A DNA stretch of 64,000 nt from Thermoflexus hugenholtzii (lineage in GTDB: Bacteria > Chloroflexota > Anaerolineae > Thermoflexales > Thermoflexaceae): NCBI RefSeq assembly GCF_018771565.1, contig NZ_CP076326.1, forward strand, positions 2,542,001 through 2,606,000. The letters are read 5' to 3'. How positions within the stretch are numbered: the stretch's first letter is position 1; each line of letters begins with the position of its first letter. Position numbers and translations under genes: made by a program. The notes under the pieces were generated by a model, which had not been told where the DNA came from, did no database searches, and worked only from the letters and a program-made list of their open reading frames with translations. Shown in pieces: positions 11,311 through 16,600 of the stretch.

Positions 11311-11790
11311 TCACCACTGCATCCAGGGGTGAGCGGCCCCGTCCGGGGCGATGAGATAAATGGTCAGCGGCCCGGTCCGGGCGCCGCCCATCCCGGGGGA
11401 GCCCGGCGGCATGCCGGGGAGGGCGATCCCGAGGGCCGAGGGGCGTTCCGCCCACAGGCGGGCGATGGCCTCCACCGGCACATGGCCTTCCACGACATAA
11501 GGGCCGATCCGGGCCGTGTGGCAGCTCCACATCGCCTCCGGGATCCCCCACTGCCGCTTCAGGGGCGCCAGATCATCCCGGTCCACCACGTGGACCAGGA
11601 GGCCATGGCCACGGAGATACCGGACGTATTCCGCACAGCAGCCACAGGTGGGGGTCTTGTAGACGGTGATCACCTCCCCACCCAGCCCGCCCGGCGGGCG
11701 CGCCGGGGCGGAGGCGCCGCATCCGGTGAGGAGCAGGATCCCGAGGATCCCGATCGTCCGGCCGCGTCCGCCGATCCCCCGAATGGACAT
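11311..11790 (-). CDS. DUF411 metal-binding lipoprotein of the copper operon
   Basis: A 159-residue DUF411 protein, a family found with copper and mercury resistance genes. An N-terminal hydrophobic stretch ends in the lipobox LLLTGC, predicting an exported, lipid-anchored protein. The domain shows TPTCGCCAEYVRYLR and MWSCHTARIGPYVVEGHVP, whose cysteines and histidine are likely copper ligands. The start is the second methionine (MSIRGIGG), because GGAGGTGCACC stands directly before it. It is the last gene of the csoR-copZ-copA operon, 37 bases after copA. It probably receives or buffers copper outside the membrane; this is inferred from family and context. Confidence 0.9.
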   Translation of the reverse strand: MSIRGIGGRGRTIGILGILLLTGCGASAPARPPGGLGGEVITVYKTPTCGCCAEYVRYLRGHGLLVHVVDRDDLAPLKRQWGIPEAMWSCHTARIGPYVVEGHVPVEAIARLWAERPSALGIALPGMPPGSPGMGGARTGPLTIYLIAPDGAAHPWMQW

Positions 11791-11827
11791 GGTGCACCTC
11801 CGCAAGAGGTTCGCCATCCGCCGCCCC

Positions 11828-14263
11828 TCAGCTCCGAAATCCCCGCAAGCGCAGGGAGTTGGTCACCACGAAGATGAAGGAGAACGCCATGGCCCCTGCG
11901 GCCATCATCGGATGGAGCAAACCGAGGGCCGCCACCGGGATCAGGATCACGTTGTAGAAGAAAGCCCAGAACAGGTTCTGGCGGATAGTGCGCATGGTGG
12001 CCCGGGAGAGACGGACGGCCTGGGGCAGCAGGCGCAGGTCCCCTCGCATCAACGTGACGTCGGCCGTCTCCATCGCCACCGCCGTGCCGGTCCCCATGGC
12101 GATCCCCACATCGGCCTGGGCCAGAGCGGGAGCGTCGTTGATGCCGTCCCCCACCATGGCCACCCGATGTCCTTCCGCCTGCAGGCGGCGGACGATCTCC
12201 GCCTTGTCGCCGGGCAGGACCTCGGCGAAGACCCGGTCGATGCCGGCCTGCCGGGCGATGGCCTCCGCGGTGCGCCGGTTGTCGCCGGTGATCATCGCCG
12301 TCTGAACCCCCAGCCGGTGGAGGGCGGCGACGGCCTCCGCCGCCTCGGGCTTTAAGGCGTCGGCCAGGGCGATCACCCCGATGGCCTCCCCATCCCGGGC
12401 CACGAGCATCGTGGTCTGGCCCTGCTCCTGAAGCGCCCGGACCGCCTCCTCCAGCCCGTTGAGGCGCACCCCCTCCGCCTGCACCCAGGCGATCCCGCCC
12501 ACCCGGATGGTGGTGCCGTTCAGGTGGGCCAGCACGCCGCGACCGGGCAGGGCGGAGAAGCCGACCGGCTTCTCCAGCGGGAGCCCCTGGGACCGGGCCG
12601 CCTCCACCACGGCCTGGGCCAGCGGGTGCTCGCTCCCCTGCTCCACGCTGGCGGCCAGCCGCAGGACCTCCTCCACGGTCCATCCCGGGCCCGGGATCAC
12701 CCGGGTGACCATCGGGCGTCCCCGGGTGAGGGTGCCGGTCTTATCCAGGGCGATCAGGGTGATCTTCCCCAGCTGCTCCAGGGCCTGGGCGTTGCGGAAG
12801 AGGATCCCCATCGTCGCCCCCCGGCCGGTGCCCACCATGATCGCCGTGGGGGTGGCCAGGCCCATCGCGCACGGGCAGGCGACCACCAGCACGGCGATGG
12901 CGTTGACCATCGCCCGGGTGAAGCCGGCCCCGCCGATCAGCAGCCAGCCCAGGAAAGCCAGCGCGGCGATGGCGATGACCGTAGGGACGAAAACCGCCGA
13001 GACCTGGTCCGCCAGCCGCTGGATGGGCGCTTTGCTCCCCTGCGCCTCCCGGACCAGCCGGATGATCCCGGCCAGCACCGTGTCCCGCCCGACCCGGGTG
13101 GCCTCGATCTTCAGCAGGCCATATGTGTTGACCGTGCCCCCCAGCACCCGGTCCCCCGGCTTCTTCTCCACGGGGATGGACTCCCCGGTCATCATGGATT
13201 CATCCACCGCGGAGCGGCCCTCCAGGACGATCCCGTCGGCCGGGATGCGCTCGCCGGGGCGCACGAGGAGGAGATCCCCCACCCGGACCTCGGCGGCGGG
13301 GATCTCGATTTCCCGGCCGTCCCGCAGGACGCGGGCGCGTTCCGGTTGCAGGGCCATCAGGGCGCGGATGGCCTCGCCCGCCCGCCCCTTGGCCCGGGCC
13401 TCGAGATACTTCCCCAGGACGATCAGGGTGATGATGACCGCGGCGGTCTCGAAGTAGGTGTAGCGGCCGAGGGCGGTGCTCCCCAGAAGGAGGGCGACCG
13501 TCACGGCCAGGCTGTAGAAGTAGGCCGCGGAGGTGCCCAGGGCCACCAGCACGTCCATGTTGGCCGTGCCCATCCGCAACGCCCGGTAGGCCCCGCGGTA
13601 GAAATCCCATCCCACGCCGAACTGCACCGGGGTGCTGAGGAGCAGCAACAGCACATCCAGACCCATGGGCCGGGTCATCCCGGGCATGACGTTGTGGAGC
13701 AGGTCGAACTGCATGCTCAACCAGAAGGTGGGCAGGGTGAAGACGAGCCCCCAGAGGAGGCGGCGGCGCTGGCGGGCCATCTCCGCTTCCCGGGCCGCCT
13801 GCTCGGCGTCCTCGCCGGCTCCCTCCAGCGCCTCCGCCGCTTCCGTCACCTCATAACCGGCGTCCCGGACCGCCCGGATCAGGTCGCGGACCGAGGCCAC
13901 GCCGACGATCATGGTGACGCGGGCGCTTTCCGTCGCCAGGTTGACGGCCGCCTCCAGCACGCCGGGGATGCGGTGGAGGATCCGCTCGATGGCCCGGGCG
14001 TCGTTCGCGTCGGCCATCCCCCGGATGGGCAGCTCCACCGTGGCGGTGGCGACCTCGTAGCCGGCGGCCCGGACGCGCTCCACCGCCTGGCGGAGGTCCG
14101 CCGCGGAGGGGTCAAGGAGCACCACCGCCTGCTCGGCGGCGAAGTTCACCGAGGCCTCCACCACCCCGGGCGCCCGCTTCAGGGCCCGCTCCACCGTCCG
14201 GGCGCAGTTGGCGCAGGTCATGCCGATGATCGGGAGCACCACCTCCCGGGGCGCAGTCGTCAT
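11828..14263 (-). CDS. copA: Copper-translocating P1B-type ATPase CopA
   Basis: An 811-residue copper export ATPase. Two N-terminal heavy-metal-associated domains: the first has an intact GMTCANC site (about residues 14-20), while the second has GMADAND, so both metal-binding cysteines are missing. Then come eight membrane helices with the copper-channel motif CPC near 460, the actuator motif TGES, the phosphorylation site DKTGTLT near 505, SEHPLA (the P1B His-Pro loop) and [10 protein letters not shown] near 720. These define a Cu(+) exporter. It is preceded by GAGGAGG and lies in the copper operon behind the regulator csoR and chaperone copZ. Confidence 0.96.
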
Positions 14264-14511: not shown

Positions 14512-15006
14512 TCAGCGGGTCGCCCGGCGCAGGATCTCCTCCACCTGCTCCGGTGTCGTGTCGTGCCCGAAGCTGCGCCAGATCACGGTCCCCTGGCGGT
14601 CGAGGACCACCAGGCCGTGGGTGCCGGGCATCCCGAAGCGGCGCAGCAACGCCTGGCCCTCCCGGGTGTCCGCCCGCACCTCGAAGAACTCCACGTCCCC
14701 TTCCCAATGCGGTCGCAGCGCCTGCACGAGGCGCGTGTTGCGGGCGCACACCGGTCAGCCGGGCAGGACGAAGTTGTAGAGCGCGGCCCGGGGGCGCGGC
14801 GTCGGCGTCCCCGTCGCCGTCGGGGTCGGGGCGGGCGCCGGCGTCTCCGTCAGCGCGGGCGTCGGCGTCCCCGTCGGGGCGGGGGCGGCGGTCGGCGTCT
14901 CCCGCGGGAGCGTGGGGACGGGAGTGGGCGATCCCGCCATCCCGCCCGCGCACCCGACCAGCCCCAACCCCCCGATCATCCACAGCCATCGCCAGATCCT
15001 TCGCAT
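14512..15006 (-). CDS. Candidate selenoprotein: thioredoxin-like lipoprotein with UPVC redox motif
   Basis: The frame runs 165 codons with one internal TGA at 14757-14755 (codon 84). Before it: signal peptide with lipobox LGLVGC and a Pro/Thr-rich linker up to YNFVLPG. After it: PVCARNTRLVQAL, then a thioredoxin-fold body (VEFFEVRADT, RRFGMPGTHGLVVLD, QGTVIWRSFG). The TGA stands exactly where the first cysteine of a CPxC redox site belongs, giving U-P-V-C, the usual arrangement in redox selenoproteins. The only restart codon after it (GTG at 14751) has no ribosome site. A stem-loop with GU in its loop lies 21-37 bases after the TGA. The gene sits between copZ and copA and would keep copper-binding thiols reduced outside the membrane. 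Alternatives are a TGC-to-TGA nonsense mutation or a sequence error. Confidence 0.7.
14718..14734 (-). promoter_or_regulatory. Possible bacterial SECIS stem-loop
   Basis: On the minus-strand RNA, GCGCCU (14734-14729) pairs with AGGCGC (14723-14718) around the loop CGUGC, starting 21 bases after the UGA. CGGU and ACCG further out could add a lower stem. Distance and a GU-containing apical loop fit SelB-dependent SECIS elements, but these are poorly conserved and GC-rich DNA forms such stems easily. Confidence 0.4.
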
Positions 15007-15046: not shown

Positions 15047-15256
15047 TCAGGCGCCGGCGGGCGGGTAGCCGATCTCGTGAAGGACGGCCACGATCCGGTC
15101 CCAGGTGGCCGGCGGCTCGAAGGACACCGTCACCTGTCGCGTGGCCACGTCCCCGTGCACCTCCCGCACGCCCTCCAGGGCCTTCAGCTCACGGGCGATG
15201 GTCTGGACGCAGTGATGGCAGGAGATGTTCGGCGCCACGAAGGTCCGGGTCTCCAT
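15047..15256 (-). CDS. copZ: Heavy-metal-associated copper chaperone CopZ
   Basis: A 69-residue single HMA (ferredoxin-like fold) domain. The metal site is SCHHC near residues 12-16, followed by the helix VQTIARELKALEGV and the typical VTVSFEP strand. Such proteins carry Cu(+) in the cytoplasm and hand it to CopA and CsoR. It starts 15 bases after csoR ends and is followed by the thioredoxin-like gene, so it is second in the copper operon. An arrangement with histidines between the cysteines is less common than MxCxxC but keeps both ligands. Confidence 0.92.
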   Translation of the reverse strand: METRTFVAPNISCHHCVQTIARELKALEGVREVHGDVATRQVTVSFEPPATWDRIVAVLHEIGYPPAGA

Positions 15257-15271
15257 CGTTCACCTCCGGGA

Positions 15272-15550
15272 TCAGATTTTCTGGGCGGCCTCGAAGACCT
15301 CCACGATCTCCTCCAGCACCCGCTCCCGCTCCTCGGGGTCCTCGCCGCGGATGGCGGTGGTGACGCAGGTGCGCAGGTGCTGGGCCAGCACCAGGTCGTT
15401 GACCTTCGCCAGGGCCCGCTGGACCGCCTGGATCTGGCGGATGATGTCGATGCAGTAGGCGTCCTCCTCCACCATCCGGGCGATCCCCTCCACATGCCCG
15501 GCGACGCTGCGCAGGCGCCGCAGGACCTCCGCCTTCGTCTTGGCCTCCAT
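15272..15550 (-). CDS. csoR: Copper-sensing repressor CsoR
   Basis: A 92-residue all-helical CsoR/RcnR-type regulator. The start is the methionine of MEAKTKAEVLRRLR, placed directly after GGAGGAGG; the open frame upstream covers the promoter. Seen: the DNA-facing RRLRSVAGHVEGI, the copper ligand cysteine in AYCIDIIRQIQAV, and the HLRTC pair, together the Cys-His-Cys trigonal site of copper sensors. Cu(+) binding should release it from its operator and turn on copZ, the thioredoxin-like gene, copA and the DUF411 gene. Confidence 0.94.
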   Translation of the reverse strand: MEAKTKAEVLRRLRSVAGHVEGIARMVEEDAYCIDIIRQIQAVQRALAKVNDLVLAQHLRTCVTTAIRGEDPEERERVLEEIVEVFEAAQKI

Positions 15551-15679: not shown

Positions 15680-15856
15680 GCGCAGGAAATCCAATCGATC
15701 CCGACAGCGGGGTCGCCCTTCTTCCCACGCCAGGGATCTACCAAATGCAGGTCGTTTATGTGTTCGATCCAGAAACGGGGAGTTCGCACTTCCTTAGTAT
15801 TCCTTTCGGATTTTGACTCACAGTGGATTGCGGTCCGCGTGCAATATCCGCGCTCA
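15680..15856 (+). pseudogene. 3' remnant of a paralogue of the lipoprotein gene at 21450-22493
   Basis: From about 15690 to 15855 the plus strand matches the end of the 21450-22493 gene: GGGATCTACCA(A/G)ATGCAGGTC is followed by the same TTTATGTGTTCGATCC, then a 12-base gap and a weaker match through the codons for the FVFGSQRIAIR-like end. Reading needs at least one frame change. The fragment stops where the transposase fragment begins, so a second lipoprotein gene once stood here and was deleted up to its tail. Confidence 0.72.
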
Positions 15857-16600
15857 ATCGGCGATACTTCCCCAACCAGGCGAAGGTGCGTTCAACAATC
15901 CAGCGATAAGGAAGCACATGGAACCCTTTACTTTTCCCCTGGCGCCGCACAATTTCCAGCGAACCGCCGGCGTGTGGCTGGACCCATCTTACCAGCGAGC
16001 CGGCGTAGCCCCCATCGGCCCATATCCGGCGCAACCGGGGCCACGCCGCCCAGGCCTTCTTCAGAACCCACCGAGCACCCTCCCGATCGGGAATATCCGC
16101 CGCATGCACCACCGCCACCAGGACCAGGCCCAGGGTGTCCACCAGCAAATGCCGCTTCCGTCCTTTCACCTTCTTGCCGGCGTCATCGCCTCGAGGCCCC
16201 TTTTTCCGTCGTCTTGACCGATTGGCTATCCACAATGGCAGCTTCCGGCTCTTCCTGGCGACCTGATGCCACCCGAACCTGACGCCGCAGGGCGTCATGA
16301 ATCCGTTGCCAGGTGCCATCCCGCCGCCACTGCCGAAAATCGTGATAAACCGTTTGCCAGGGGGGGAAGTCGTGGGGGAGCATCCGCCACGCGCCGCCGG
16401 TGCGCAGGACGTAGAAGATGGCATTCAGAATCTCGCGGTAGGAATGCACCCGAGGCCTTCCCCGCCGGGTGGAGGGCCTGGGCAGGAGCGGCTCGATGAT
16501 CCGCCACTCCGCATCCGAGAGATCCGTGGGATAGGGTTTGCGTGTCCTTTGGGCCATCATAATTGAAAGTTCAACAGATGCCTTCGCTTCAGTCAAATAT
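15857..16600 (-). mobile_element. Truncated IS5-family transposase (two frames)
   Basis: The first frame (start at 16557 or 16596, stop at 16183) gives the N-terminal half with PYPTDLSDAEWRIIEPLLP and IVDSQSVKTTEKG. The second frame, entered near the run GAAAAAGGGG at about 16200, continues with KKVKGRKRHLLVDTLG, WADGGYAGSLV and WIVERTFAWLGKYRRLSAD. This is a DDE transposase of the IS5 family (IS427-like layout with an A/G slippery run). After RRLSAD the reading frame passes into the unrelated remnant at 15680-15856, so about 30 C-terminal codons and the left end of the element are lost. No inverted terminal repeat pair could be matched. It is most likely dead. Confidence 0.85.

Follow-up and report, generated by a model that had tools for sequence, protein, structure and literature searches.

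The window analysed here, a stretch of 64,000 nucleotides from the hot-spring bacterium Thermoflexus hugenholtzii (source genome 3.3 Mb, in a single contig), carries on its minus strand a copper operon that includes a gene with an in-frame TGA codon. The features of this gene and its neighbours are as follows.

15272..15550, minus strand: CsoR copper repressor (PF02583)
15047..15256, minus strand: CopZ-like copper chaperone with an HMA domain (PF00403)
14512..15006, minus strand: predicted selenothioredoxin lipoprotein gene, 164 residues with Sec84, the terminal stop TGA included in the coordinates; kept in six Thermoflexus genomes
14950..14952, minus strand: lipobox Cys19 (LVG-C), lipid anchor predicted from the sequence; a lipobox-type Cys is also present in translated congeneric copies
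14755..14757, minus strand: in-frame TGA at codon 84, read as Sec84 and opening the motif U-P-V-C
14718..14734, minus strand: putative bSECIS apical hairpin GCGCCU-CGUGC-AGGCGC, loop beginning 26 nt after the UGA
14617..14619, minus strand: His130 at the thioredoxin cis-proline position; His in 6/6 Thermoflexus, Pro in 57/58 relatives outside the genus
14563..14565, minus strand: His148, directly after the conserved Gly147 in the neighbouring loop; invariant in the genus
11828..14263, minus strand: CopA-like Cu(I)-exporting P-type ATPase with two HMA domains
11311..11817, minus strand: CopG-like DUF411 lipoprotein with a CGCC copper-cluster motif (PF04214; 6WIS, E = 5.3e-20)

The gene and the copper operon

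Read from 15006 to 14512, the gene comprises 165 codons [MRRIWRW...LVGC...TPTPRPRAALYNFVLPG-TGA-PVCARNTRLV...LRRATR-stop] and ends on TGA; the TGA at 14757-14755 is its only internal stop. A first-pass annotation of this DNA had described a lone in-frame TGA at the first cysteine position of a redox motif, with PVC following, and the minus strand bears this out. The start codon is preceded by a purine-rich ribosome site (AGGAGGCGGAAGGAAGAGGGGACCCGG-ATG). The N-terminal half consists of a signal peptide up to the lipobox LVGC (Cys19) and a Pro/Thr linker. According to the predicted secondary structure the TGA splits a thioredoxin fold, with the conserved strand AALYNFVLPG on its 5' side and helix α1 on its 3' side. 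Both halves are thus needed for one protein, as had been proposed; the signal, linker and strand lie before the TGA and the rest of the fold after it. The claim that the downstream half lacks a ribosome site of its own also holds, since the sole start-like codon soon 3' of the TGA, GTG 14751, has no purine-rich ribosome site before it.

The order csoR, copZ, the TGA gene, copA, DUF411 and a radical-SAM gene is found in five Thermoflexus genomes; the contig of a sixth starts at the TGA gene and has the same order from there onward, so the copper context of the earlier annotation (csoR, copZ, copA, DUF411) is a real and conserved operon. The DUF411 protein aligns with CopG (6WIS) at the motifs CGCC and GMPPGSPGM; CopG is a thioredoxin-like protein that holds a Cu4 cluster (PMC7558416). 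A TTGACA/TAAGAT-like promoter lies 5' of csoR and in relatives a C/G-rich palindrome stands next to it, plausibly, by inference, the CsoR operator. Directly upstream of csoR there is also an IS4/5-family transposase in two overlapping frames (window 15756-16596, minus strand), perhaps made by frameshifting.

The TGA gene is not in every copy of the operon. One congener (G003:C219, L166) has csoR-copZ-copA-DUF411 without it, and the approximately 200 nt between copZ and copA contain no remnant of it; the gene is therefore accessory, and dispensable for copper export in that genome. For two other genomes, G006 and G007, the search recovered no more than pieces of the closest copA, and absence of the gene there is not shown. 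We also considered the protein as a stand-in for a missing Sco, and rejected this because the T. hugenholtzii genome has a separate Sco gene. The genome also encodes a candidate electron donor, a CcdA-like protein identified by a weak match. With both in the genome, the TGA gene is no simple replacement for either.

Inferred recoding of codon 84

The gene was found in 6/9 Thermoflexus genomes, with TGA at codon 84 in all six. The congeners compared, which are separate assemblies, include Candidatus Thermoflexus tengchongensis, T. japonica and T. sinensis. The six copies have 80-98% protein identity over the domain, high on both sides of the TGA, and the terminal stop drifts between species (TGA, TAG or TAA) while the TGA at codon 84 is invariant. 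In the homologue alignment that the first-pass annotation had proposed as a check, codon 84 is either TGA or Cys (TGY), and the random stops elsewhere in relatives that would have counted against recoding are absent from the homologues.

The source genome contains the complete set selA, selB, tRNA-Sec and selD, as the selenoprotein proposal demands: a tRNA-Sec with anticodon UCA, SelB [325.8 bits including neighbouring pieces (cut-off 242)], SelA [562.9 bits (cut-off 268)] and SelD [377 bits (cut-off 125)]. An in-frame TGA also interrupts the SelD gene (G000:C1:2801258-2802193, L142), in the motif U-A-S-K; SelD can therefore be produced only if the Sec machinery is active. The same genome has a second membrane-anchored thioredoxin-like gene with a TGA, in the context FSNY-TGA-LGC (G000:C1:2257495-2257743, L163; relatives L159, L164 and L165); it is present in six other Thermoflexus genomes too, and its protein falls below the cut-off of every NCBIfam model.

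The hairpin starts twenty bases 3' of the UGA and has a predicted energy of -9.0 kcal/mol. The bSECIS rules, as given in a 2026 selenoprotein catalogue (PMC13188914), are a loop of 3-9 nt, a stem of 4-16 bp, a G in the first two loop positions, a distance of 16-37 nt from the UGA and an MFE <= -7.5. The hairpin meets them with a loop of 5 nt, a stem of 6 bp, a G in the second loop position with a U after it, and a spacing of 26 nt. Taken alone, the window sequence does not make it exceptional (fold z-score -0.3 to -0.4; synonymous-shuffle p 0.41) because the gene is GC-rich, and an Rfam scan at gathering thresholds returned only a tRNA-Val. Since folding and shuffling of the single sequence did not single out the hairpin, comparison was used, and the case for a SECIS rests on it.

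Within the genus, synonymous variation is seen at 1/13 testable codons after the UGA versus 34/57 elsewhere (Fisher p = 0.0013); the putative SECIS footprint (40 bases after the TGA) is frozen at synonymous sites. In 47 distinct TGA homologues from Chloroflexota the hairpin stands at this distance from the UGA and its arms change in a compensatory way; five core pairs are formed in 96-100% of them. One pair is A-U in 30, G-C in 10, C-G in 6 and U-A in 1, with no mispairs; the same pair is formed in only 8/25 Cys homologues, in which most core pairs are at 32-52%, the exception being one pair at 92%. In a counted alignment of 20 sequences the covariation is 0.350 versus 0.125 ± 0.023 after shuffling, a value reached by 0/500 shuffles, and the hairpin is 83% paired versus <=43% when slid. 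Several compensations match a synonymous third base (GAU/GAC) with an Ile/Val codon change, a pattern that protein constraint alone does not explain. The synonymous shuffle applied to 40 TGA and 15 Cys sequences gave p <= 0.05 for 19/40 and 1/15, a trend only. The proposed SECIS downstream of the TGA has thus passed the comparative tests, with an unexceptional single-sequence fold. Two Cys-containing thioredoxin lipoproteins (L057 and L071) still have a SECIS-like hairpin in the position typical of the TGA genes, possibly as recent Sec-to-Cys converts or possibly by chance.

Could the TGA be something other than a selenocysteine codon? Read without recoding, the frame breaks into a fragment of 83 residues and another of 79 residues that starts on GTG, as would suit a genuine stop, or a mutation in a pseudogene, with the halves separate or dead. 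This is very unlikely, as both halves form one thioredoxin domain, protein conservation is 80-98% on either side, the TGA is invariant though synonymous sites elsewhere vary, the SECIS covaries, further stops are absent and GTG 14751 has no ribosome site. Assignment of UGA to another amino acid (Trp or Cys in a changed code), or non-specific readthrough, would likewise give a full-length protein, but is scarcely credible in a genome where TGA terminates both this gene and copZ and where a dedicated tRNA-Sec, SelA, SelB and SelD are present; moreover, collected homologues without TGA have Cys at the aligned position. A sequencing or assembly error needs only one base, TGC to TGA, yet can practically be discounted, the same codon being TGA in six independently assembled congeners and dozens of relatives, which is not chance. 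The TGA at codon 84 almost certainly encodes selenocysteine, although this is deduced from sequence, without protein evidence, and has not been shown biochemically. We are highly confident that this gene of the copper operon specifies a lipoprotein with a thioredoxin fold and a selenocysteine; machinery, TGA conservation, SECIS and operon together support what the first-pass annotation had called a probable new selenoprotein.

Fold, histidines and relatives

The AlphaFold2 model (64 homologues) is a canonical thioredoxin fold with a pLDDT of 93.6. It matches thiol-disulphide oxidoreductases and thioredoxins in the PDB with a TM of about 0.8, the closest being Bacillus thiol-disulphide oxidoreductase and thioredoxins. 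The protein scores below the cut-off of every Pfam and NCBIfam model. Criteria for a canonical thioredoxin are not met, with no match to PF00085 or TIGR01068 at E <= 1 and His130 in place of the cis-proline; there is no match at E <= 1 to SaoT (NF040730, cut-off 65 bits), and none to Sco/SenC (PF02630), the motif being UxxC rather than CxxxC. The Rcas_1661 family (NF041057) scored just 12.2 bits (cut-off 190), over residues 14-73 only; this match lies on the low-complexity signal and P/T linker, not on the thioredoxin domain, and the identity was rejected.

The protein has three histidines, of which His130 and His148 are invariant in the genus. Among the aligned sequences the cis-proline is replaced by His only in the Thermoflexus clade. 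The cis-proline may normally keep metal off the thioredoxin active site.

Profile searches of 400 genomes from the phylum and 396 from the class recovered many membrane-anchored thioredoxin-like genes with TGA at the same codon, as well as homologues with Cys at codon 84 (e.g. CPFC in L048 and L139). Ten selenothioredoxins from relatives and from the same genome fall below every NCBIfam cut-off. In a tree of 64 rows there are 9 Sec/Cys changes, and at least 6 switches are forced by supported branches. Thermoflexus branches off among the Sec lipoproteins on a long stem, at 2.02 changes per column, and support for this position is modest; the tree has too few columns for firm placement of the clade. 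The copper-operon protein is one clade in a large unnamed set of Chloroflexota membrane-anchored thioredoxin-like selenoproteins. This wider set is apparently not generally found in copper operons; contigs of the distant relatives L077 and L078 have no match to the copper-operon genes, and the L076 contig has a piece of a related P-type ATPase several kb from the homologue. A peptide-pattern scan of the genome contigs returned Thermoflexus matches only, and sets no bound on the family since one of its two patterns cannot match a TGA codon.

Two further gene types were seen among the relatives. Seven lipoproteins (L062, L063, L066, L128, L129, L130 and L137) have two in-frame TGAs in the thioredoxin active site (U-x-x-U), followed by a SECIS hairpin. 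On another contig (L015 1128 and 1516, G025:C42) tandem genes for TGA thioredoxin lipoproteins precede a HypC-like gene and a ResB gene, the latter of cytochrome c biogenesis.

Possible function and comparison with known systems

In the mechanism that we propose, SelB and Sec-tRNA would decode UGA84 under the in-gene SECIS hairpin, recoding being inferred from comparison. Judging by the operon layout, the gene would be co-expressed with the CsoR-controlled copper export genes and induced by copper. From its inferred location the protein would act on the membrane's outer face beside the CopG-like protein, with a putative active site of Sec84-Pro-Val-Cys87, His130 at the cis-proline place and His148 in the neighbouring loop. 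It may be a thiol/selenol redox protein that responds to copper and either binds Cu(I) by means of Sec84, Cys87 and His130, much as Sco does, or keeps the copper-cluster cysteines of CopG reduced, or does both. A copper-linked redox role of this kind is the likeliest one, by inference; Cu(I) binding and the partner are likewise inferred, not shown, and His130 could serve another purpose.

Two readings of this role differ in the part given to copper. In one, selenocysteine is inserted and the protein is an ordinary extracytoplasmic ResA/TlpA-like reductase of copper-protein cysteines that binds no copper, His130 tuning its redox potential or substrate choice. The thioredoxin fold and its closest structures are in accordance with this, as are the candidate CcdA-like donor, the cis-proline kept by Chloroflexota relatives, and the precedent of Bradyrhizobium TlpA, which acts in copper-site assembly as the reductant of ScoI and CoxB (PMC7558416). 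We regard it as a serious contender at somewhat under even chances; against it stand the very long stem of the clade and the genus-invariant histidines at the cis-proline position and after Gly147, which are specific to the copper-operon clade. In the other, put forward more tentatively, a selenolipoprotein oxidoreductase would have exchanged its cis-proline for His130 and so become a copper-binding selenothioredoxin; its Sco-like Cu(I) site would use the selenolate of Sec84 together with Cys87 and His130, and it would work with CopG at the cell surface under CsoR control. The change from cis-proline to His favours metal binding; whether the protein reduces or binds copper is undecided.

If this is confirmed, copper defence would include a selenium protein that has not been described before. 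It likely represents a new selenoprotein family whose physiological setting, copper stress, is clear; many predicted selenoproteins have no such setting. Selenocysteine as a natural copper ligand becomes testable; were the Cu(I) reading true, the site would be a natural selenocysteine-copper centre. The 47 TGA genes, including the U-x-x-U double-Sec lipoproteins, suggest that extracytoplasmic selenothioredoxins are common in Chloroflexota, which may explain the Anaerolineae genome reported with a selenocysteine elongation factor and no Sec-annotated dehydrogenases (PMC4959059).

The family NF041057 (DsbG-like) is also one of thioredoxin-like (seleno)lipoproteins; its name, Rcas_1661, presumably points to the Chloroflexota species Roseiflexus castenholzii. 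Thioredoxin-fold UxxC selenoproteins listed in the catalogue are thioredoxin (PF00085), the thiol:disulphide interchange protein (PF13098), SaoT (NF040730) and HUIPC (NF047660) (Table 1, PMC13188914). The protein shares with these the thioredoxin fold, the placement of Sec at the head of UxxC and a bSECIS right after the UGA; it differs in reaching no family cut-off, in the change from cis-proline to His, in the copper operon and in its long P/T-rich lipoprotein linker. The first-pass annotation knew of no selenoprotein in a copper setting. This stands for a selenothioredoxin with a copper operon and a cis-proline to His change, which was not found in NCBIfam release 20, the parts consulted of the 2026 catalogue (PMC13188914) or the open-access literature searched, although an earlier mention elsewhere is possible. 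It does not stand for selenoproteins in general, as the catalogue lists CopZ-family 2Fe-2S proteins (GxUC/CU) and the SO_0444 Cu/Zn efflux protein (UxC); these place Sec in a copper-handling gene, as here, with different folds and genes.

Two copper proteins come close without selenium in the comparison. CopG/DUF411 (6WIS) is thioredoxin-like, exported and encoded in copper operons, and one such protein is the next-but-one gene here; it holds its Cu4 cluster through CxCC and Met, has no Sec and belongs to a different family. Sco proteins use two Cys and a distal His to hold Cu(I) (PMC7558416). Sco/SenC (PF02630) is likewise a membrane-anchored thioredoxin fold with two chalcogen ligands and a His in a copper context, but has CxxxC and extra insertions where the Thermoflexus protein has UxxC.
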